NCBI RefSeq assembly: GCF_001618865.1
Contig: NZ_CP015136.1
Span: 5,243,001 to 5,307,000 of the forward strand
Source of the DNA: Luteitalea pratensis
GTDB taxonomy: Bacteria; Acidobacteriota; Vicinamibacteria; Vicinamibacterales; Vicinamibacteraceae
Reading direction: 5' to 3'
DNA: 64,000 bases
The position numbers and the translations under genes are program-made. Below are positions 28,776 through 39,496 of this stretch, piece after piece (the first letter of the stretch is position 1; each line of letters opens with the position of its first letter). The notes below the pieces were generated by a model. That model was not told the origin of the DNA, did not search any database, and was given only the letters and a program-made list of their open reading frames with translations.

Positions 28776-30038
28776 TCAGGACGCCGCGTGCGCAACGAGT
28801 TCGTCCAGCCAACGCAGGTCACCGGTGTCCGCGGCATCGGCGACCAACCATTGTTCCACGTCTGCGATTCCGGTGGGCGGTACTCGCACGATCGCATGGC
28901 TGGTCGCACCGGGCGCAAGGACGCCAAGGCCTTCGCGCCGTAGCGCTTGCGCGCCACCGCGGGTGGCCGCCGCCAGCAGCGCGGCGGCTGGGACGTCTGG
29001 GGCAATCCGCCGCAGAAACGCCAGTTCCGCGAACAGGTTCAGGTCCTCGACGCTGGCCAGGCTGTCGGTGCCGACCGCGACCCGAACGCCCGCCGCGAAG
29101 GCCGCGGCGACGGGAGGCACGCCGGCGCCGACCCATCGGTTGCTCCGCGGACACAGCACGACGGTCGCGCCGACGTCGGCCAGCGTCCTGAGTTCTCCCG
29201 CACCGAGCTGCGTGCCGTGGACGACAAGCAGCCGCGCATGGAGCGCGCCGAGTTGCTGCAGGTACGGCACGGGTGCGAGGCCAGGCGGCACCCACGTGTC
29301 GTCCCAGGCGCCGAGATCGGTGAGCAGGGCGCGGAACGGGCCCGTGCCGCTCGCAAGGAACTCGAGTTCCTCTGGCGATTCGGCCAGATGGATCGACGAC
29401 ACCGCGCCGGTGGCCTCGTAGCCCGCCGCCAGCGACTGGATGAGCGGAGCCGATGTCGAATAGGGCGCGTGTGGCGCCACCGACGCCACCAGCCGCGTCG
29501 ACCGCTGCTCGGTGAGCCGCGTCTGTGCCAGCGCGGCACCCAGCCGGGTCTCGCCTCCGATGCGCGCCGCGTCGGCCCGCTTGAGCCCGAGTGCCTCGCG
29601 GAAGTGCACGCCCGACAGCGACGAGGCGGCCAGTGGCAGCACGGCGACGTCGGTGTTGCCGATGTCGCCGACGCCGGCGGTGCCTGTCGCCTCCATCTGG
29701 CCAATCGCCCGGACGACGGCGGCGGTGACGTCTGCCACCGAGGCCGACGAGCCGAAGCGCACGCCCAGCATCGCGCGCACCCACGACACGAAACTGTCGG
29801 CAGGCGCCACCGCGCCGGCAAGGTGCGACAGCTCGAGGTGCGTGTGCGCGTTGACGAGGCCCGGCAACACGACGGCGTCGCCCAGGTCGAGGACAGCATC
29901 GGGTCCGGGCTGCGGCGCCGATCTCGCAGCGCCAAGCCCGACGATCTCACCGCGCGCCGAATCGACGTCGATCCAGCCATCTCGCAGGACCGGCGCCGCG
30001 ACGGGAATCACCCACCTGGAGTGGACACGGATGATCAC
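28776..30038 (-). CDS. mqnX: COG0402 amidohydrolase, probable aminofutalosine deaminase
   Basis: 420 residues, GTG start. Metal-dependent deaminase of the cytosine deaminase/ATZ group: LPGLVNAHTHLELSHL (first metal ligands), SVAPHAPYSTSAPL, SSIHLAESPEELEFL, LLVVHGTQL and AVGTDSLASVEDLNLFAELA with the metal-binding Asp. Some COG0402 members deaminate aminofutalosine in the futalosine pathway. The position just upstream of the UbiA, ubiX and menG genes and near mqnA/mqnC makes that the best reading. S-adenosylhomocysteine or guanine-type deamination cannot be excluded. Confidence 0.68.
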   Translation of the reverse strand: MIIRVHSRWVIPVAAPVLRDGWIDVDSARGEIVGLGAARSAPQPGPDAVLDLGDAVVLPGLVNAHTHLELSHLAGAVAPADSFVSWVRAMLGVRFGSSASVADVTAAVVRAIGQMEATGTAGVGDIGNTDVAVLPLAASSLSGVHFREALGLKRADAARIGGETRLGAALAQTRLTEQRSTRLVASVAPHAPYSTSAPLIQSLAAGYEATGAVSSIHLAESPEELEFLASGTGPFRALLTDLGAWDDTWVPPGLAPVPYLQQLGALHARLLVVHGTQLGAGELRTLADVGATVVLCPRSNRWVGAGVPPVAAAFAAGVRVAVGTDSLASVEDLNLFAELAFLRRIAPDVPAAALLAAATRGGAQALRREGLGVLAPGATSHAIVRVPPTGIADVEQWLVADAADTGDLRWLDELVAHAAS

Positions 30039-30217: not shown

Positions 30218-32875
30218 CTATTCCTGGCGCAACGCTGCTGTCGGATTGAGGCGCGCGGCCCGAGCCGCCGGAATCGCGGCGGCCGCCAGGCACGCGGCGA
30301 CGATGACGACGCCGGCGGCGGCGTATGAAACAGGGTCGAGCACCCGCACGATTCCGCCCAGGCCCGCGGCGGCTGGCGAGGCCAGCAGCAACACCGCCAG
30401 TCCAGCCGCGGCCAGCGCGCCGATCGCGAGGCCGATGCCGACGGGCCGAATCGTCTGCAACAGGACGAGCCGCGTCACGTCGGACGCCGCGGCGCCGAGC
30501 GCCATGCGGATACCGATCTCCCTGGACCGTCGCTCCACGAGATAGGACAGCACCCCGAACAGACCGGAGAGCGTCAACGCCAGCGCCAGTGCGCCGAGCA
30601 CGACCGTCAACCAGAACGCGAGCCAGAGGAAGTACGTGACCATGCGCGTCACCCACACCATGGCGCCTACCTGGCCGCGGTTGGCCATGTTGGGATCGAT
30701 CGCCGAGAGCCGTGTCACGAGTGACTCCTGCGCGCGGGTGGCGTCACCGTGCACACGCGCGATCAGTGACGTGCCTGGCATTGCCGCACTGGTCGGGACG
30801 TAGACGACGGCGGCCTCGAGCGGCGCGATGCGGAAACCAGCCACGTCCTTGACGACACCGACGACCGTTACAGTGCGCGATTCCAGGACGGGTTCACCAG
30901 GCGTGATCACGCCCGCGCCCGTGTCGCGGTCGAGGCGCAGCACCTGACCGACGGCCTGGCCTGTGGGCCACAGCCGACGCGCGGTCGCCTCCGAGACGAC
31001 GGCGACCGAGAGGTTGGACGAGCGCTCCGCGGGCATGAAGCCTCGGCCCTGCAGCACCTCGATACCAAGCAGGCCGAAGTACTCCGGCGAGACGAACTGG
31101 CACGGCAGCGTCGTCTTGCCGGTGTCGGTTTCGGCGACGACCCGTGGACCGGTGCTGAGCGCGCTCGGCCACGACGCGGCAATCGCGGCCACCGACGGCT
31201 CGTCGCTCACCGCCTGCACCATCGCCATGCGCGCCTCCTCGCTGCTCACCCGGACCACGACGATGTCCGAGATTCGTACGCCGGGACTTTCGATCGCAGC
31301 GGTGAACGTGCTCCGCAGGAACACCGCCGCGCAGATCAGCAGAAGGGCCGAAGCGCTCACCTGGAGGCCGATGAGGAAACTGCGCGCGCGCCCGGGCCGC
31401 GTGTCCCGGGTCACTTCGCCGCGTATCGTCCGGACCGGTTCGATCCGCGTCGCCTGCAGCGCCGGCGTGAGGCCGAAGAACGCCGTGGACAGGACAGCCC
31501 CAATCACCAGGAACAGCAGCACTCGCCAGTCGGCGTCCGGCACCCTCAGGCGCACGTCGCCGATGGCCGACGGGATGCTGGTCATCACCCCGTTGATGAT
31601 GCCCCTGAGCACGACGCGTGAGATGACGTATCCGGCCGCTGCGGCCACCAGCGCCAGCAGCAGGCTCTCGGTCAGCAACTGGAAGACGATGCGTCGTCGT
31701 GTGGCGCCGATCGACAGCCGGATGCCGATCTCGCGCTGGCGCGCCACGCCTCGCGCCAGGAGCAGATTGGTGACGTTGGCACACCCGATCAGGAGAATCA
31801 GGCCAAATGCGAAGAACAGCGGCGCGGTCACGATCACCGCTTCGAGCGGCTGCGGCACCGTGCCGCGTCGTGGCGTGAGCACGACGTCCGACACGCCCTT
31901 CTCGTTCGGGTCACGGGCCTCCTGCGCGCCATCCCACACGGCGAGCTCGGCACGTGCCTGCTGCGGCGTCAATCCGGGCCTCAGGCGCCCGATGATGCCC
32001 ACACCGGCCTCGGATGGACGGTCTCGATGTGCCGGAAGCAACTGACCGAGCAGCGAGAGCGGCGCCCAGTAGTCCGGGGGACCAACCATCAGGCCGCGGA
32101 ATCCTTCGGGCATGACGCCGACAATCTGGAACGTGAGACCGTTGACGAGCAACTCACGGCCGAGAATGGCCGGATCCCGGGCGAACATGCGCTCCCAGCC
32201 GCGGTGGCTGAGCACCATCACCTGTCGTCCCGCCAGCGGCTCGTCGTCGCTCTGCGTGAGCGCACGGCCCATTGCGGCGTGGACACCGAGGACCTGAAAG
32301 AAGTTGCCGGTGACGAGCGACCCCGTCATCGTCCGGCCCTCGACATGGCTGTCGAGGTCGGCAAACTCCGCGTAGGTCCCCGTGAAGACCCTGGTGTCGC
32401 GAGCCAGCGCGTCGAATTGGCCCCGCGTGAACGGCGGCGATGGGTCGCCGCCCGTTCGTGCCCGTTCCACCGCGAACATCTCGTGGATGTCCGGAACGCG
32501 ATCGACACGGAACAGGAACGTGCTGAGGAACGTGAAGGCCGCGGCGACCAGCCCGAGGCCGAGCCCGACCGTCGCGATGATGGTGAGCGAGACCAGCGGC
32601 GCGCGCGCGAAGCCTCGCAGCGCGTACCGCGTGTCGCGCACGATGTTGTCGATGGCGTTGATGCCACGCGCGTCTCGACACTCGTCGGCGATCCCTGGCA
32701 TGGAGCCGAAACGCCGCCGCGCCGCGACGCGGGCATCCGCTTCCGGCACGCCCTCGTCGATGAGTTTCTGTACTTCCCGATCGATGTGGAACGCCAGTTC
32801 CTCGTCGAGTTCGCGTTCGACGCGGCTGCGGGCAAACATCGCACGGGCGCGCAACGACCAGCTGCGGAGATTCAT
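30218..32875 (-). CDS. FtsX/MacB-type ABC permease of the acidobacterial duplicated (ADOP) type
   Basis: 885 residues. Residues 1-80 form the permease prefix (ELDEELAFHIDREVQKLIDEGV). Then a first membrane helix (LVSLTIIATVGLGLGLVAAAF), a MacB-like periplasmic domain, an FtsX domain (GLILLIGCANVTNLLLARGVARQREIGIRLSIGA), a second periplasmic domain and a second FtsX domain (LFGVLSYLVERRSREIGIRMALGA). The duplicated FtsX unit without its own ATPase and with an upstream PadR gene is the ADOP pattern. It starts 4 bp after padR. Substrate unknown. It splits the menaquinone genes into two blocks. Confidence 0.9.
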   Translation of the reverse strand: MNLRSWSLRARAMFARSRVERELDEELAFHIDREVQKLIDEGVPEADARVAARRRFGSMPGIADECRDARGINAIDNIVRDTRYALRGFARAPLVSLTIIATVGLGLGLVAAAFTFLSTFLFRVDRVPDIHEMFAVERARTGGDPSPPFTRGQFDALARDTRVFTGTYAEFADLDSHVEGRTMTGSLVTGNFFQVLGVHAAMGRALTQSDDEPLAGRQVMVLSHRGWERMFARDPAILGRELLVNGLTFQIVGVMPEGFRGLMVGPPDYWAPLSLLGQLLPAHRDRPSEAGVGIIGRLRPGLTPQQARAELAVWDGAQEARDPNEKGVSDVVLTPRRGTVPQPLEAVIVTAPLFFAFGLILLIGCANVTNLLLARGVARQREIGIRLSIGATRRRIVFQLLTESLLLALVAAAAGYVISRVVLRGIINGVMTSIPSAIGDVRLRVPDADWRVLLFLVIGAVLSTAFFGLTPALQATRIEPVRTIRGEVTRDTRPGRARSFLIGLQVSASALLLICAAVFLRSTFTAAIESPGVRISDIVVVRVSSEEARMAMVQAVSDEPSVAAIAASWPSALSTGPRVVAETDTGKTTLPCQFVSPEYFGLLGIEVLQGRGFMPAERSSNLSVAVVSEATARRLWPTGQAVGQVLRLDRDTGAGVITPGEPVLESRTVTVVGVVKDVAGFRIAPLEAAVVYVPTSAAMPGTSLIARVHGDATRAQESLVTRLSAIDPNMANRGQVGAMVWVTRMVTYFLWLAFWLTVVLGALALALTLSGLFGVLSYLVERRSREIGIRMALGAAASDVTRLVLLQTIRPVGIGLAIGALAAAGLAVLLLASPAAAGLGGIVRVLDPVSYAAAGVVIVAACLAAAAIPAARAARLNPTAALRQE

Positions 32876-32879
32876 CTCG

Positions 32880-33215
32880 TCACGCCAACTTCATGACGCG
32901 ACCGATCGCGGCGGCCATGCGATCCCACTCGCGCGCCTCGACAGCCAGCTGCCGGCGGCCCGAGGCGGTGAGCCGGTAGTACTTCGCGCGACGTCCAAGC
33001 TCGGACACGGCCCACTCGGCCTCGATCCAGTCCTGATGTTCGAGCCGATGGAGGGCGGGATACAGCGACCCCTGGTTCACCTGGAGGACGTCCCCGGAGA
33101 TCCGCTGGATGCGTTCGGAGATCGCCCAGCCATGCAATGCGTCGTTCTGCAGGGTCCGGAGGATCAGCAGGTCCAGCGTGCCGGGGAGGAGGTCTGGTGT
33201 AGGGCGGCGTGCCAT
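32880..33215 (-). CDS. PadR family regulator of the ADOP permease
   Basis: 111 residues from the ATG at 33215 (MARRPTPDLLPGTLDLLILR), the usual length and opening of this subgroup; a GTG six codons upstream is less likely. Winged helix: ALHGWAISERIQRISGDVL and VNQGSLYPALHRLEHQDWIEAEW, then RRAKYYRLTASGRRQL. Probably represses its own operon through the dyads overlapping its start region. Confidence 0.92.
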   Translation of the reverse strand: MARRPTPDLLPGTLDLLILRTLQNDALHGWAISERIQRISGDVLQVNQGSLYPALHRLEHQDWIEAEWAVSELGRRAKYYRLTASGRRQLAVEAREWDRMAAAIGRVMKLA

Positions 33216-33216
33216 G

Positions 33217-33260
33217 GTGTCGACTACCGACACTAAGGCCGTTGTTGTCGACTGTCAACA
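33217..33260. promoter_or_regulatory. Two dyads before padR, candidate operators
   Basis: Dyad 1: GTGTCG-N5-CGACAC at 33217-33233, ending two bases from the ATG. Dyad 2: TGTTG-N8-CAACA at 33243-33260. Both contain TCGACT. The spacing of 26 bp suits binding of two PadR dimers. The site overlaps the expected ribosome-binding region. Confidence 0.45.
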
Positions 33261-33385: not shown

Positions 33386-34603
33386 TTACGCCAGCTGCGA
33401 ACGGCGGGCACGCTCCTCGCGGCTCCGCGCCTCGTAGGCCGCGAGTTCGGCGGGCATGCGCTCGGCCCCCTCCTGCTTGGCGACGTCCAGCGACAGCCTT
33501 CGCGGCACCGCGCGCTCGCGGAACACCGGCGGCCCGACGAGGTCGTAGTGCATCGTGCGCCGCATCGGCGTGAACCCGGCGTTCTCGATGTTGCGCACGA
33601 TCTCGACTTCGTCCATGCAGTAGCTCGCGCCAGCCGCACGGACGACGTTCTCCTCGATCATCACGCTGCCCATGTCGTTGGCGCCGAAGGCCAGGCTCAA
33701 CTGGCCGACCTTGCCGCCTTGCGTGACCCACGAGGCCTGCACGTTGTCGAAGTTGTCGAGGACGATGCGGGCGAGCGCAAGCGTGCGGAGATATTCGATG
33801 CCCGTGAGCTCGACGCCGGCAAGCTCGGTGTGATCGGGCTGGTAGCTCCACGTGATGAAGGCCGTGAACCCGTGCGTTTCGTCCTGCAGGGCGCGCAACC
33901 GCATCATGTGCTCGATGCGCTCCGCTGGCGTCTCCACGCTCCCGTACATCATCGTCGCGGTGGTACGTAGTCCCTGGAGGTGCACTTCGCGCATGATGCC
34001 GAGCCACTCGTCCGCGGTTGCCTTGCCGTAGCAGTTGAGCAGCTTGCGGACACGGTCGACGAGGATCTCGGCGCCACCGCCGGGCACGCTGTCGAGCCCG
34101 GCCGCGATCAACCGCGAGACGACCTCCGGTACGGGCAACTTCGACATCCGGGAGATGTGCAGAATTTCGGGAGGCGACAGCGCGTGCAGCCTGAATGTCG
34201 GGTACGCCGCCTTGACGGCGCGGAACAGGTCCTCGTACCAGGCGAGCGGGATGTCCGGGTTGTGGCCGCCCTGCAGCAGCAACTGGTTGCCGCCGACACT
34301 GATCGTTTCGTCGATCTTGGCAAACAGCTCCTCACGCGACAGCACGTATCCATCGGCACTGCCGACGGTGCGGTAGAACGCGCAGAAGTTGCAGCGGGCC
34401 ACGCAGACGTTCGTGTAGTTGACGTTGCGGTCGATGATGTAGGTGACGACACGCTCCGGATGACGCCGCGCGCGAATCGCGTCCGCAAGGCGTCCCAATT
34501 GCCACGTGCTCGCGTCGCGGTACAGCGTCAGCGCCTCGTCGGCGTCGATCCGCTCCCCGCGGTTGATCTTGTCCGCAATCGTTGCCACCGACATCTGAGT
34601 CAC
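33386..34603 (-). CDS. mqnC: Cyclic dehypoxanthinyl futalosine synthase (radical SAM)
   Basis: 405 residues. Radical SAM enzyme of the futalosine menaquinone route. The cluster motif is CVARCNFCAFYR (C-x3-C-x2-C), within YIIDRNVNYTNVCVARCNFC, the form seen in MqnC rather than MqnE. Also LLLQGGHNPDIPLAWYEDLF, SVPGGGAEILVDRVRKLL and TTATMMYGSVETPAERIEHM. A C-terminal tail of about 45 residues (from about 360) is longer than usual. It follows mqnA by 7 bp. Confidence 0.9.
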   Translation of the reverse strand: MTQMSVATIADKINRGERIDADEALTLYRDASTWQLGRLADAIRARRHPERVVTYIIDRNVNYTNVCVARCNFCAFYRTVGSADGYVLSREELFAKIDETISVGGNQLLLQGGHNPDIPLAWYEDLFRAVKAAYPTFRLHALSPPEILHISRMSKLPVPEVVSRLIAAGLDSVPGGGAEILVDRVRKLLNCYGKATADEWLGIMREVHLQGLRTTATMMYGSVETPAERIEHMMRLRALQDETHGFTAFITWSYQPDHTELAGVELTGIEYLRTLALARIVLDNFDNVQASWVTQGGKVGQLSLAFGANDMGSVMIEENVVRAAGASYCMDEVEIVRNIENAGFTPMRRTMHYDLVGPPVFRERAVPRRLSLDVAKQEGAERMPAELAAYEARSREERARRSQLA

Positions 34604-34610
34604 GGCCTCG

Positions 34611-35465
34611 TCAAGCTCTCTCGGACGCCAACGCGCCCGCCTGCGTCGTCCCGGGGACCGCCGCCTGGCCCATGCGATCGACGACCTCGAGGACCTCCGG
34701 GCGTACCGGGGCCAGCCCCTCGTCCATCGCCAGCGTCAGGTAGCGCGACAACCCGCGCAGGGCGGGCTCATCGAGATGGTACCGGATGTTCTGGCGCAGG
34801 TAGCGCTCCAGGCGGCCAGCGCGTGTGGAGTCGCCCGCCGCCTCGGCTTCTGCAAGCAAAGGAATGGCGGCCTGTCCGGCGCGACTTGCCGCGTGCAAGA
34901 GGTCGATCAACGCCGGCGTCACCACGCCGGGCCGAGCCACCCAGGCGGCAAACACGAACGGCAACCCGGTGAACGCCTGCCACGCCTCGCCGAGATCGAT
35001 TTTGATCGCGCCAAGCGATTGCCACGGGGCGTCGAGCGCGGGATCGCCGATCATCAGCGCCGCGTCGGCGACGTCCAGCATCGAGGCCAGGTCCGGCGAC
35101 GCGTCGACATATTCGGGCTCGATGCTCCAATGGTGACGACAAAGAATCCGCACCAGCCCGACCGAACTCCGAGAGCTGACATCGAGCGCCAGGCGGCGGA
35201 TCTGTGCCACCGGCACGCGCGTGAACAGCGCCACCGAGTTGACCGTGCCCTCGCAGGCGATCGCGAGTCCCGGGACGAGGTCGTAGTGCACCGGTCCTCT
35301 CAAGATCTCGATCACCGGCACGAGACCGAGATCGATCTCGCCCGCGTGCAGCAGGCTCGCGCACACCGAGGGCAGGTCGAGGCGCAGCGATACTCGAGGA
35401 TCACGGTCGAGGCCATACGCGAGGGGACTCGCGTTCAGGAACCCGACCGCCCCGATGCGAATCAC
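34611..35465 (-). CDS. mqnA: Chorismate dehydratase MqnA
   Basis: 284 residues from the GTG at 35465, which overlaps the previous stop (GTGA); upstream in-frame sequence is a shadow of the next gene. It converts chorismate to 3-enolpyruvyl-benzoate, the first step of the futalosine pathway. Periplasmic-binding-protein-like fold with RIGAVGFLNASPLAYGLD, GEIDLGLVPVIEILRG, ACEGTVNSVALFTRVP, VALDVSSRSSVGL-like segment, ALMIGDPAL and LGEAWQAFTGLPFVFAAWV, all typical. Confidence 0.92.
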   Translation of the reverse strand: MIRIGAVGFLNASPLAYGLDRDPRVSLRLDLPSVCASLLHAGEIDLGLVPVIEILRGPVHYDLVPGLAIACEGTVNSVALFTRVPVAQIRRLALDVSSRSSVGLVRILCRHHWSIEPEYVDASPDLASMLDVADAALMIGDPALDAPWQSLGAIKIDLGEAWQAFTGLPFVFAAWVARPGVVTPALIDLLHAASRAGQAAIPLLAEAEAAGDSTRAGRLERYLRQNIRYHLDEPALRGLSRYLTLAMDEGLAPVRPEVLEVVDRMGQAAVPGTTQAGALASERA

Positions 35466-36397
35466 GCCGCGCCTCGCGGGCGAAAGGCGCCGTCGCGCTC
35501 GACGGCGTCGAGCGACGCGGCGGCGAGGTTGCGCCGGACTTCCTCGAGGATCGCGCGGCGCGGCCCGTGCGGCATGTCGTCGCGCGCAGGGACGGCGTCG
35601 ATGTCGTCGGCGCCAAACAGCAGGCACGACTGCGACAGCTTCGCGCCCATGCGCACCCAGTGCGCCTGGATGTGCGGGACGTTGTCGAGCACGAGACGCG
35701 CGACCGCCACGTGGCGCATGTCGTCGTAGCCCGTTGTGGGCTGCTCGAGCGACGTCTCGACGGGTAACGGCGCACAGGCGCGCACAACGCCGGTTGCGGC
35801 CTGCCACGCTCGCAGCGCCTCGAGTTGGTCGAGCAGTGCGTCGCCGTCGACGGGCGTTCCAAGCGTGACCGACTGCACCGGCAGTCCCGCCGATGCCAGC
35901 GCGTCGAGGTCCGCGGCCACCAGGCGATCGAGCCGTGCCGAGGCCACCGCGTGGAGCCCTGCTTCGCGCAGCGTGGCGGCGACATCGGCGAGCGGCCCGA
36001 GCGCGGAAAGCTCTTCGACCGTCCACGCCGAGACGGGCACGCCGCCCCGCGACGCCGCGGCCAGCACCATCAGGCGCGCGGTGGCGAGCGAGGCTGGGGC
36101 GCCCACGAGCCGCAGTTCTCCCATGGAGAACGTGCCGCCCTCCGCGGTCGCGAGTTGTGGCAGGTCCAGGCCGAACCCGCCGGTATCGGCGGGGACGTGC
36201 GACACGTCCACGACCTGCACGCGGACGAACGTACCGCGCGTGCCGTGTCGCCGCGTTCGCGCGTCCGCCGCGAGCATGCCCAGCCCGATCAGGTCGCGGC
36301 TGTGCGCAAGGGCGTGCAACTGCGACGCCGAGAGCGCCTCGCCAGCCGCCAGGGCCTCCGTGAGTCGATCGAAATCCACCGCCGCCATTGCCATCAT
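35462..36397 (-). CDS. MqnE-like protein lacking the radical SAM cysteine motif
   Basis: 311 residues from the ATG at 36397 (4-base overlap with the upstream stop). The C-terminal third matches aminofutalosine synthase MqnE: GYDDMRHVAVARLVLDNVPHI, then HWVRMGAKLSQSCLLFGADDID and RRAILEEVRR. Where the cluster loop should be, there is GTRGTFVRVQVVDVSHVPAD; the whole protein has only two cysteines (in VRACAPL and SQSCLLF), so no C-x3-C-x2-C. The frame is intact, is in the mqn operon, and is overlapped at both ends. It may be a non-catalytic partner or a repurposed enzyme; a real MqnE must then be elsewhere. Confidence 0.75.
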   Translation of the reverse strand: MMAMAAVDFDRLTEALAAGEALSASQLHALAHSRDLIGLGMLAADARTRRHGTRGTFVRVQVVDVSHVPADTGGFGLDLPQLATAEGGTFSMGELRLVGAPASLATARLMVLAAASRGGVPVSAWTVEELSALGPLADVAATLREAGLHAVASARLDRLVAADLDALASAGLPVQSVTLGTPVDGDALLDQLEALRAWQAATGVVRACAPLPVETSLEQPTTGYDDMRHVAVARLVLDNVPHIQAHWVRMGAKLSQSCLLFGADDIDAVPARDDMPHGPRRAILEEVRRNLAAASLDAVERDGAFRPRGAA

Positions 36398-37332
36398 CCC
36401 TGGGTCATCTGGTCGTTGATGCGCTGCGCGAGCGCCAGCGCCCGGCGCCCCTGCGCGCCATCCACCCGCGGCGCGCGACCGCCACGCACCGCGCCCACGA
36501 AATCCTCGAGTTCCCGGCGAAGCGGTTCGGCCTCGGGGACGGCGACCGGACCGCCCTCGATCGCCGGACGCCCGCCGTCCACCTTGCGGAGCCGCCACAC
36601 TTCCAGCTCCCGGCTCGCGTAGTCGACCGACACGTAGGCGGCCGGCTCGATGAAGCGAACCTTGCGCACGCGATCGCGACTGATCCGACTCGCGGTCACA
36701 TTGGCGATGCAGCCACCGGCAAACTTGAGCCGCGCGTTGGCGATGTCGACACGACCGGTCAGTACCGGCACGCCCACGGCCTCCACACCCACCACCTCTT
36801 CGTCCACGACCGACAGTAGTACGTCGAGGTCATGGATCATCAGGTCGAACACGACGTCGATGTCCAGGCTTCGGTCGGGGAACGTGCCGAGCCGGTGTAC
36901 CTCGATGAAGCGCGGCCGCGAGAGAAAGGGCCGGGCCGCATCGACGGCCGGGTTGAACCGTTCCGTGTGCCCCACCGCGAGCAGCACCCCACGTGCTTGC
37001 GCCCGCGCGATGAGGTCGTCGGCCTGGGCGAGCGTGGTCGTCATCGGCTTCTCGACCAGCACGTGGATGCCGGCGTCGAGCAGCATCGCGGCAAGCTCGT
37101 GGTGCGCCTCCGTCGGCGAGGCGATCGTCACGGCGTCGACCATCCCGATCAGCGCCGAGGGGTCGGTCAGGTGCGCCTGCGCGCCATGCTGCGCCGCGAT
37201 CTCGGCAGCCCGCGAGGCATTGACGTCGACGACGGCGGCAAGCACGGCGTCGGGCGTGTCGCCAAGGATCCGGGCATGATGGCGTCCGAGCGCGCCCACG
37301 CCAATCACTCCCACCCGCACCGCATCAGCCAC
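36394..37332 (-). CDS. Gfo/Idh/MocA family oxidoreductase
   Basis: 312 residues. NAD(P)-binding Rossmann domain ([19 protein letters not shown]), conserved [19 protein letters not shown] with the catalytic Lys, and a C-terminal domain with [12 protein letters not shown] and [16 protein letters not shown] (family His). It overlaps lpxI by 8 bases and the MqnE-like gene by 4, so it bridges the lipid A and menaquinone genes. A UDP-sugar dehydrogenase such as GnnA is possible from the neighbourhood, but no partner aminotransferase is present and the LpxA here looks O-acyl specific. Confidence 0.85.
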
Positions 37333-38161
37333 GTGCCTGTTCTCCCAGGGGACGTCCGACGACGGTCACGCGCGCGGCGTCGGCCGCGTCGGCCACGGCC
37401 TGTCCGTCGAGCACGAGCGTGCGTCCGGCGTCGATGGACAGGATCCGGATGCCGGCGTCCCGCAAGACCGCAATCGTGGGCAACCCGACGATGGGGACGT
37501 CGAAGCGCATGTCCTGCCGCGGCTTGGCGACCTTGATGACGCACGCGCCGGGCCCGGCGATTCGTCCGGCCCGCCGGATCGTCTCGTCCGTGCCTTCCAT
37601 CGCCTCCACGGCCACCACGGCCTGGTCCTTCACGACGATCGTCTGTCCGATGTCGAGGCCGGCAATGGCGTCGGCCATCCGGTAGCCGAACTTGAGGTCG
37701 GCCCTTGCCACGTCGTCTGGCGCGGGCCCGGCGATGTGACCTTCCCGCGCCAGCAAGGGCTGCAGGAACACCGTCGAGTCGAGCAACTCGATGCCCTTGC
37801 CGCGCATCACGTCGGCGATCGCCGAGATCAGGGCATCGGTGGACTTGGCGCGCAGGCGCATCAGCACCTGCAACAGCGTCCAGTCGGGCGTGATATTGGC
37901 AAACAACTTGGCGTGCTTGACCTGGCCGGCCATCACCGCCTGTGCGCAGCCGGCCTCCTGCAACAGCTGGATGCAGCGCCCCAACTGGCCGAGCGAGACC
38001 GAGTGCAGAGCGGCGCCGACTGCCGCGGCGCGTTCGACCAGATCGTCGCCGGTTTCTTCCTTGATCGCGACGACGGTGACCTCATGCCCCAGGGCGGAAG
38101 CCGCGTCGAGCACGAGCAGGGGGAACTTGCCGTTGCCGGCGATGAGGCCGATGGGAGGCAT
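37325..38161 (-). CDS. lpxI: UDP-2,3-diacylglucosamine diphosphatase LpxI
   Basis: 278 residues. Hydrolyses UDP-diacylglucosamine to lipid X in lipid A synthesis, replacing LpxH. Family features: [109 protein letters not shown] and [19 protein letters not shown]. Downstream of fabZ-lpxA, but lpxB is not adjacent. Confidence 0.94.
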
Positions 38162-38165
38162 GGAT

Positions 38166-38219
38166 CAGGCAGCCTGCCGCCTGCAGCCTGCAGCCTTGGG
38201 CTACAGGCTACCGGCTACA
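38166..38219. repeat. Heptamer array, CAGCCTG/CAGGCTA family
   Basis: About seven units (CAGCCTG, CCGCCTG, CAGCCTG, CAGCCTT, CAGGCTA, CCGGCTA) occupy almost the whole gap between lpxI and fabZ-lpxA. Confidence 0.82.
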
Positions 38220-38221
38220 TG

Positions 38222-39496
38222 TCACTCGTCTGGAGAGACGTCTTCGGGACGCCGGGTCGCACGGCGCAGGATCACCCCGCGCTTGCTCTGCCGGATGAAA
38301 TCGATGAGGTACTGCACCTCGGTGCACTGCAACTCGGGATCCTTTTCAATCTCGGCCAACGCTCGCGTGGTGTTGAGCCGTGACACGAGGAGATACCGGT
38401 ACGCGTGGCGGAGGCGCGTGACCGCGCCGGCGGTGAACCCCCGCCGCATCAGGCCGATGGTGTTCAGCCCGTAGTTGCGGGCGCGGTTGCCCACGGTCTT
38501 GGCAAATGGCAGCGCGTCCTTGGTGACCACCGAGTAGCCGCCGATGAACGCGTGGCTGCCGATACGGCAGAACTGGTGCACCCCAGAGAACGCGCTAATC
38601 GTCGCGCAGTCCTCGACGGTGACGTGCCCGCCCAGGGTGGCGGCGTTGCCGAAAATCGTGTGATTGCCGACGCGGCAGTCATGCGCGATGTGCGAGTACG
38701 CCATGAACAGGTTGTGGTCGCCGATGCGCGTAACGCCGCCGCCGCCCTCGGTGCCGCGATGCACGGTGACGAACTCGCGGAAGACGTTGAACCTGCCGAT
38801 CTCGAGCCGCGTCGGTTCGCCGCGGAACTTCGTGTCCTGCGGGATGAGGCCGATCGACGCGTACGGGAACACTTCCGTCCCTTCGCCGATGGTCGTTGCG
38901 CCGTCGATGATCGCGCCCGCGCCGATCTTGCAGCGCGGCCCGATCTTCACCTGCGGCCCGATCACGGCATTGGCCGCGACCACCGTCCCGGCTCCGATCT
39001 CCGCGCCCTGCTCGACCACCGCCGTCGGATGGATGATGGCCGGCTCGGGCTCGATCGCCATCACGAGCGTGCCCTCGGCCACGATCTGGTCGTGGACGTA
39101 GGCGACACCGCGGACACGCGCCATCGTTGCGCGCCGCCGCTCGATCGAGAGCTCGAGACGCACGCGATCGCCGGGGCCGACCGGCTTGCGGAACTTCACG
39201 CCATCGGCGCCGCGCAACGACGCACGGTGCGGCAGGATCGTGCCGTCGGCGGCCTGCAGGAGCAGCACGCTTGCAGCCTGGGCCATCGACTCGATCATCA
39301 GCACGCCCGGCATCAGCGGCGCGCCCGGGAAGTGGCCCGGGAAGAAGTCTTCGTTGACCGTGACGTTCTTGATCGCGACCAACCGCTCACCGCACGTGAA
39401 GTCGGTGACGGCATCGACCATCTGCAGCGGGAAACGCGAACAGAGCCGGTCGATGACTGGAGGGAGATGGATGGACACGAAGCGTTCGTCCGGCAA
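38222..39496 (-). CDS. Fused 3-hydroxyacyl-ACP dehydratase FabZ / UDP-GlcNAc acyltransferase LpxA
   Basis: 424 residues, two enzymes in one frame. Residues 1-150 are FabZ: QMVDAVTDF, EDFFPGHFPGAPLMPGVLMIE with catalytic His, and FRKPVGPGDRVRLELSIER. Residues about 153-424 are LpxA: left-handed beta helix hexapeptides (IHPTAVVEQGAEIGAGTVV), catalytic His in AYSHIAHDCRVG, ATLGGHVTVEDCA and FSGVHQFCRIGSHAFIGGYS, and an alpha-helical tail. The Gly at the position equal to E. coli Gly173 points to UDP-GlcNAc (O-acyl) use. FabZ feeds the 3-hydroxyacyl-ACP pool that LpxA uses. No lpxD lies between ompH and this gene. Confidence 0.93.
   Translation of the reverse strand: MPDERFVSIHLPPVIDRLCSRFPLQMVDAVTDFTCGERLVAIKNVTVNEDFFPGHFPGAPLMPGVLMIESMAQAASVLLLQAADGTILPHRASLRGADGVKFRKPVGPGDRVRLELSIERRRATMARVRGVAYVHDQIVAEGTLVMAIEPEPAIIHPTAVVEQGAEIGAGTVVAANAVIGPQVKIGPRCKIGAGAIIDGATTIGEGTEVFPYASIGLIPQDTKFRGEPTRLEIGRFNVFREFVTVHRGTEGGGGVTRIGDHNLFMAYSHIAHDCRVGNHTIFGNAATLGGHVTVEDCATISAFSGVHQFCRIGSHAFIGGYSVVTKDALPFAKTVGNRARNYGLNTIGLMRRGFTAGAVTRLRHAYRYLLVSRLNTTRALAEIEKDPELQCTEVQYLIDFIRQSKRGVILRRATRRPEDVSPDE

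Follow-up and report, generated by a model that had tools for sequence, protein, structure and literature searches.

The trypanosome AdoMetDC prozyme is described as a dead paralogue that activates the active enzyme of its pathway (PMC5201418), a dead deoxyhypusine synthase paralogue is kept beside the active enzyme as its activator (PMC3663545), and plant TSB-like is a dead paralogue that activates an enzyme of the same pathway (PMC12727527). Among the matches listed in our search of the open-access literature, we found no fitting description of a cysteine-less MqnE relative or of a radical-SAM pseudoenzyme. The closest named relative of the protein considered here is the radical enzyme MqnE (aminofutalosine synthase, TIGR03700; PDB 6XIG, 6XI9), followed in profile searches by MqnC (TIGR03699) and CofH.

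Here, we characterize an MqnE-derived protein without the cysteine motif from Luteitalea pratensis, follow its orthologues through the order and class, and propose a role for it beside the menaquinone enzymes MqnA and MqnC. The window analysed is a 64,000-nucleotide stretch, positions 5243001-5307000 of a single 7,480,314-base contig. We use "pE" as a working name for the product of the open reading frame at 35462-36397 on the minus strand and for its orthologues; its assignment draws on the reading frame, profile searches, an alignment and an AlphaFold2 model.

An MqnE homologue without a radical SAM site

The pE frame begins with ATG at 36397 and encodes 311 amino acids with no internal stop in the window sequence. 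Its start overlaps the stop of the upstream gfo gene by 4 bp (ATGA, 36394-36397), and its stop overlaps the start of mqnA, also by 4 bp (GTGA, 35462-35465). The TIGR03700 profile of MqnE matches the protein at 77.2 bits (E 1.1e-21), far below the curated cut-off of 434.55 bits, and the match is strongest over residues 189-305. A weak further piece of the same profile (model positions 3-59, 17.4 bits) indicates that the N-terminus preceding the lost motif is also MqnE-like, so that homology to MqnE extends, weakly, to the N-terminal helix in addition to the C-terminal part. Two cysteines are present, within VRACAPLP and SQSCLLF, and CxxxCxxC is absent. These results bear out the sequence-only reading, which had called this an MqnE homologue lacking the radical SAM cysteines, with an MqnE-like C-terminal third and an intact frame overlapped by both neighbours. 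As its role, that reading suggested a scaffold or regulator of the pathway, or an enzyme of altered chemistry.

The retained C-terminal core (residues 209-301, at 35495-35773 on the minus strand) was delimited by per-column conservation and includes a CofH_C domain (PF19288) at residues 219-269, which scores 33.3 bits against a gathering score of 27. Pfam found no Radical_SAM domain (PF04055) in window pE, whereas the window's MqnC matches that family at 63.3 bits; MqnC thus pairs CofH_C with Radical_SAM, and pE carries CofH_C alone. The same holds for the family: TIGR03700 and CofH_C each match 68 of 68 orthologues (E <= 0.001, best 1.8e-27, and E <= 0.01, respectively), and Radical_SAM matches none of the 68 at E <= 0.01. 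The C-terminal region is related to that of MqnC as well (59.4 bits), with Q244, K253 and, in most pE, N290 in common.

We compared pE with its catalytic relatives in an alignment of 73 orthologues; this set and the 73-locus set used for gene linkage hold one locus per genome, differ in a few rows, and neither includes genomes G055 and G056. No aligned pE contains CxxxCxxC (0/73), and 16 of the 73 have no cysteine at all. In window pE, the ungapped residues at the three cysteine positions, Pro, Gly and Gly, might be taken for simple point loss; we rejected this account because the family alignment shows the loop to be deleted. The stretch from strand beta-1 to strand beta-2, which in MqnE forms the cluster loop and helix alpha-1, has a median of 18 residues in pE (range 13-35, n = 73), compared with 49 in 40 MqnE and 48 in 59 MqnC. 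It measures 33 residues in window pE (residues 61-93, at 36119-36217 on the minus strand). A second deletion, 24 versus 39 residues, removes the GGG motif, which we take to be part of the SAM site; its columns are gaps in all 73 rows. The median length of pE is accordingly shorter than that of MqnE (299 versus 368 amino acids).

Among the residues identical in at least 95% of both MqnE and MqnC, those lost in pE comprise the three cysteines, the preceding TN, GGG, K197, T220, M221, H235 and D244 (numbering of the MqnE from the same genome), and those kept at 97-100% are W247, Q256, G262, D265, G278 and R301 (window pE numbering). Three arginines, R96, R280 and R281, are fixed in pE (97-100%) but in neither MqnE nor MqnC. 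T56 and G223 are likewise fixed in pE but common in MqnC, and D226 is fixed in pE and also occurs in the displayed MqnE rows of neighbouring orders. Eleven columns are invariant among 68 pE sequences. The catalytic site is lost throughout the pE family, and pE is therefore probably incapable of radical SAM chemistry.

An AlphaFold2 model of window pE, built with six sequences (L044, whose bases include positions read as N, was left out of the structure alignment), reached a pLDDT of 78.4 and a pTM of 0.80. Its best Foldseek match is the MqnE of Pedobacter heparinus (E 1.3e-18). Superposition on 6xig_B gave a VIA Z of 27.8 with 293 residues aligned at an rmsd of 3.4 A, and PylB was the next-best family (Z 20.4). 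The MqnE barrel fold is thus predicted to be retained. DSSP placed no helix between the strands at residues 51-61 and 91-95 of the model, where pLDDT is mostly around 50.

Distribution, pathway context and selection

To follow pE beyond the window we ran a profile of 68 pE sequences over 193 genomes of the class, 162 from the order Vicinamibacterales and 31 from other orders. pE is present in 138 of the 162 genomes of the order, in several only as pieces cut by contig ends (for example G188), and in none of the 31 others, where the 11 matches listed are the genomes' own true MqnE. A search of 396 genomes of the phylum at E <= 1e-35 gave matches confined to the order, apart from G003, a further genome of the class in which the true MqnE is what was matched. 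With 0 of 73 aligned pE carrying the motif, the cysteine loss is conserved in the order, which answers the check on orthologues proposed by the sequence-only reading.

In the 24 genomes of the order without pE, we saw no complete mqnA-mqnC locus that lacks it. Ten have no TIGR03700 match at E <= 1e-30 (G060, G071-G077, G089, G131). Three have a true MqnC on a contig that ends upstream of or inside mqnA, or inside mqnC (G037, G053, G109); G160 has only a relative of MqnC at 38% identity, and G064 only a partial match. The other nine have MqnE and no MqnC.

The nine with MqnE and neither pE nor mqnC are drafts (G047, G054, G080, G099, G124, G129, G139, G143 and G153; loci L139, L140 and L142-L148), seven of which also hold one PF02621 gene; an assembly gap or a split pathway is possible. 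In family f4 (G071-G077), an MqnE/MqnC-type match is absent from all seven genomes at E <= 1e-30 and PF02621 from all three tested, so this family probably has no futalosine route. The 38% relative in G160 (L157, C162, 1262-2344) is a further member of the MqnE/MqnC/CofH group, and many genomes of family f15 have three TIGR03700 matches.

The genome that carries the window also encodes, at 894992-896041 of the same contig, a relative that by its motif is of the catalytic type: a full MqnE with CQASCLFC and a TIGR03700 score of 475.7 bits. The expectation that the aminofutalosine synthase step would need another gene, and that a second MqnE with the cysteine motif might be found, was thus borne out. 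Across the order, MqnE exceeds the TIGR03700 cut-off in 120 of 138 pE genomes (L132, with 69 amino acids before a stop, was excluded from the MqnE sets), and 11 of the remaining 18 hold MqnE pieces, mostly 66-88% identical to the MqnE of the order. MqnE was undetected in the other seven (G034, G035, G055, G056, G059, G085, G165), all drafts of 57-98% completeness, three of them at 95-98%.

Near 7.0755 Mb of the same genome, an MqnB-like gene (under its cut-off) adjoins a second PF02621 gene that is probably mqnD. With MqnE, MqnA, MqnC, the MqnB-like protein, the probable mqnD and an amidohydrolase all present, the futalosine route appears to be complete even when pE is left out, and the MqnB-like and probable mqnD genes leave no step obviously open for it. 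We rejected on these grounds the idea that pE fills a missing pathway step.

Purifying selection on the orthologues, another proposed check, is evident from dN/dS values computed with our own Nei-Gojobori script: pE ranges from 0.085 to 0.32 in 12 of 12 pairs. In the three pairs within the window's genus, its dN/dS resembles that of mqnA and of the amidohydrolase; in all nine pairs outside that genus it is equal to or above that of mqnA, and it exceeds that of mqnC in all 11 pairs with a valid mqnC value (the mqnC match for L080/L103 was wrong and was ignored). Constraint on pE is moderate, since its dN/dS lies above that of mqnC and, outside the window's genus, at or above that of mqnA. The suggestion that this is not a decaying pseudogene holds up on the open frame, retention in 138 of 162 genomes and these ratios, and a sequencing frameshift or pseudogene was rejected as an account of pE for the same reasons. 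In G106 and G111 a stop falls inside the profile match, yet the pE frames are open at 292 and 291 amino acids (L081 and L063).

Gene neighbourhood and origin

In the window, pE lies directly upstream of mqnA and then mqnC, all on the minus strand. The mqnA gene (chorismate dehydratase, 34611-35465) has a GTG start and matches PF02621 at 171.6 bits. The mqnC gene (cyclic dehypoxanthinyl futalosine synthase, 33386-34603) scores 486.8 bits with TIGR03699 against a cut-off of 428.1 and has an intact CVARCNFC, so that the operon has its own MqnC with the radical SAM site that pE lacks. Farther downstream on the same strand, at 28776-30038, is an amidohydrolase, a possible aminofutalosine deaminase (NF006269, 131.4 bits, under the cut-off of 320); in most relatives with enough fetched sequence, the gene likewise lies downstream of mqnC. 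Upstream of pE is a Gfo/Idh/MocA oxidoreductase (gfo, 36394-37332, minus strand; PF01408, 101.2 bits), whose best NCBIfam match is UDP-GlcNAc 3-dehydrogenase at 186.7 bits, under the cut-off of 450.

At every one of the 73 loci of the linkage set, mqnA directly follows pE. At the 72 loci with a script-called start, pE and mqnA overlap by 1-4 bp in 45, are separated by 0-60 bp in 20, and lie farther apart in 7. An order common to many loci is fabZ-lpxA, lpxI, gfo, pE, mqnA, mqnC, amidohydrolase, in which fabZ-lpxA and lpxI were named from reading the sequences, without a family search. In the window (36394-39496) the LpxI-like, Gfo/Idh and FabZ-LpxA-fusion-like genes, which belong to lipid A synthesis by their names, lead into the menaquinone genes on the same strand, an arrangement kept in many relatives. 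Also in the window, at 30218-33233, a large permease-like and a small PadR-like regulator frame, both named from reading, separate mqnC from the amidohydrolase; in L086 and L087, loci of the same genus, the amidohydrolase directly follows mqnC.

Genus g20 departs from this pattern. In both of its drafts (G055, G056) pE and mqnC are direct neighbours, without an intervening mqnA, and the amidohydrolase is still present (L194, G056:C4, 1600-3904; L195, G055:C44, 6252-8389). We did not find mqnA in the stretches read, and MqnE was undetected in either draft genome (82% and 97% complete). Because pE adjoins mqnC without mqnA in both drafts, MqnC appears to be a steadier partner of pE than the mqnA product.

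The slot occupied by pE provides the main argument on its ancestry. In family f16, which belongs to another order of the class, mqnE-mqnA-mqnC occur in 8 of 8 fetched loci (L046-L053) with mqnE in the position of pE; its motif is C[AV]ATCDFC in the seven loci read, and the L051 mqnE is in two pieces. Genome G009, considered as a possible intermediate between MqnE and pE, has a normal MqnE with CVATCDFC (L046) and was set aside. The only f17 locus fetched (L054) has mqnE with neither mqnA nor mqnC nearby, and family f16 is thus the only one for which a shared slot has been shown. Because the pE slot is the mqnE slot there, descent from the operon copy is the favoured origin. The order's own MqnE, mostly of the CxASCLFC type, forms a separate clade.

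Phylogenetics do not prove this descent. In a free maximum-likelihood tree pE groups with MqnE of neighbouring orders (92/100, not starred), and its stem is very long, at 3.74 changes per column. Neither of the alternatives tried is rejected by AU tests: placing pE with the MqnE of its own order gave p 0.365, and placing it with MqnC gave p 0.55 at a likelihood slightly above that of the free tree. Profile scores average 76.6 bits for neighbouring-order MqnE, 81.8 and 78.6 for MqnE of the phylum (whose profiles are best for 61 of 73 pE), and 55.2 and 54.2 for the order's own MqnE and MqnC; pE scores better with MqnE of neighbouring orders or of the phylum than with its own order's MqnE and MqnC, but the scores do not tell the two better groups apart. 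We infer that pE descends from an operon mqnE.

A proposed accessory role in the menaquinone pathway

The reading we prefer, with confidence that is evenly balanced, is that pE is an MqnE-derived pseudoenzyme retained as an accessory subunit, itself non-catalytic, of the pathway proteins that the operon encodes. Another MqnE, encoded elsewhere, would have taken over the aminofutalosine synthase step; the relieved MqnE, probably that of an ancestral mqnE-mqnA-mqnC operon, would then have lost its [4Fe-4S]/SAM site to become pE, which would be co-translated with MqnA and MqnC as a non-catalytic subunit. Because pE is kept in most relatives in the order, usually beside a second intact MqnE elsewhere, it probably assists or regulates the pathway. 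MqnC would be its most likely partner and MqnA the second. Loss of helix alpha-1 would open part of the barrel wall to a partner, and the fixed arginines might serve to hold an anionic intermediate, so that pE may bind a pathway protein or such an intermediate. Co-occurrence with mqnA-mqnC may also be mere linkage. More tentatively, pE might be a radical-SAM prozyme, that is, a relieved MqnE that, after losing its cluster and SAM site, turned into an MqnC subunit with an allosteric or channelling role and was kept across the order. pE would resemble the dead-paralogue activators in being a catalytically dead copy that accompanies an active enzyme from its own pathway; those systems belong to other families, and activation is reported there while for pE it is a proposal.

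The main rival is that pE is a real enzyme that has acquired new, non-radical chemistry on a futalosine-pathway intermediate or side product, with R96, R280 and R281 in a new active site. Fixation of those arginines in pE, but in neither MqnE nor MqnC, is what such a site would predict, and the MqnE-like barrel of the model and conservation within the order agree with it; but the known pathway looks complete without pE in its own genome, the f16 slot holds a catalytic mqnE, and pE is found in none of the 31 other-order genomes, and we consider this reading unlikely. Less probable still, pE could be a soluble protein that carries or senses a pathway metabolite (the anionic MqnA product, for instance) and has no stable protein partner. 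Such a protein would fit the fixed arginines and the 45 of 72 loci at which pE and mqnA overlap, whereas the pE-mqnC unit of g20, which has no mqnA, argues against it.

That pE is a functionless relic, decaying or passively retained, is very improbable: pE evolves faster than mqnC and has lost its catalytic site, but its presence in 138 of 162 genomes, the low dN/dS, the 11 invariant columns and the kept gene overlaps are hard to square with decay. That pE still makes aminofutalosine by a cluster-independent route, at least in the seven genomes (both g20 drafts included) where MqnE is undetected, is hardly credible given the deleted SAM and cluster sites, the incompleteness of those drafts, and MqnE whole or in pieces in 131 of the 138.

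Reconstitution of MqnC or MqnA from these bacteria may have lacked pE as a component, and annotation by C-terminal similarity could mislabel it as MqnE. Dead paralogues that steer enzymes are known in other families, and none among the open-access matches listed derives from MqnE or its relatives. As a trait of most of the order, with a live enzyme in the same slot in family f16, pE offers a natural experiment in which a radical enzyme loses its chemistry but keeps a job.
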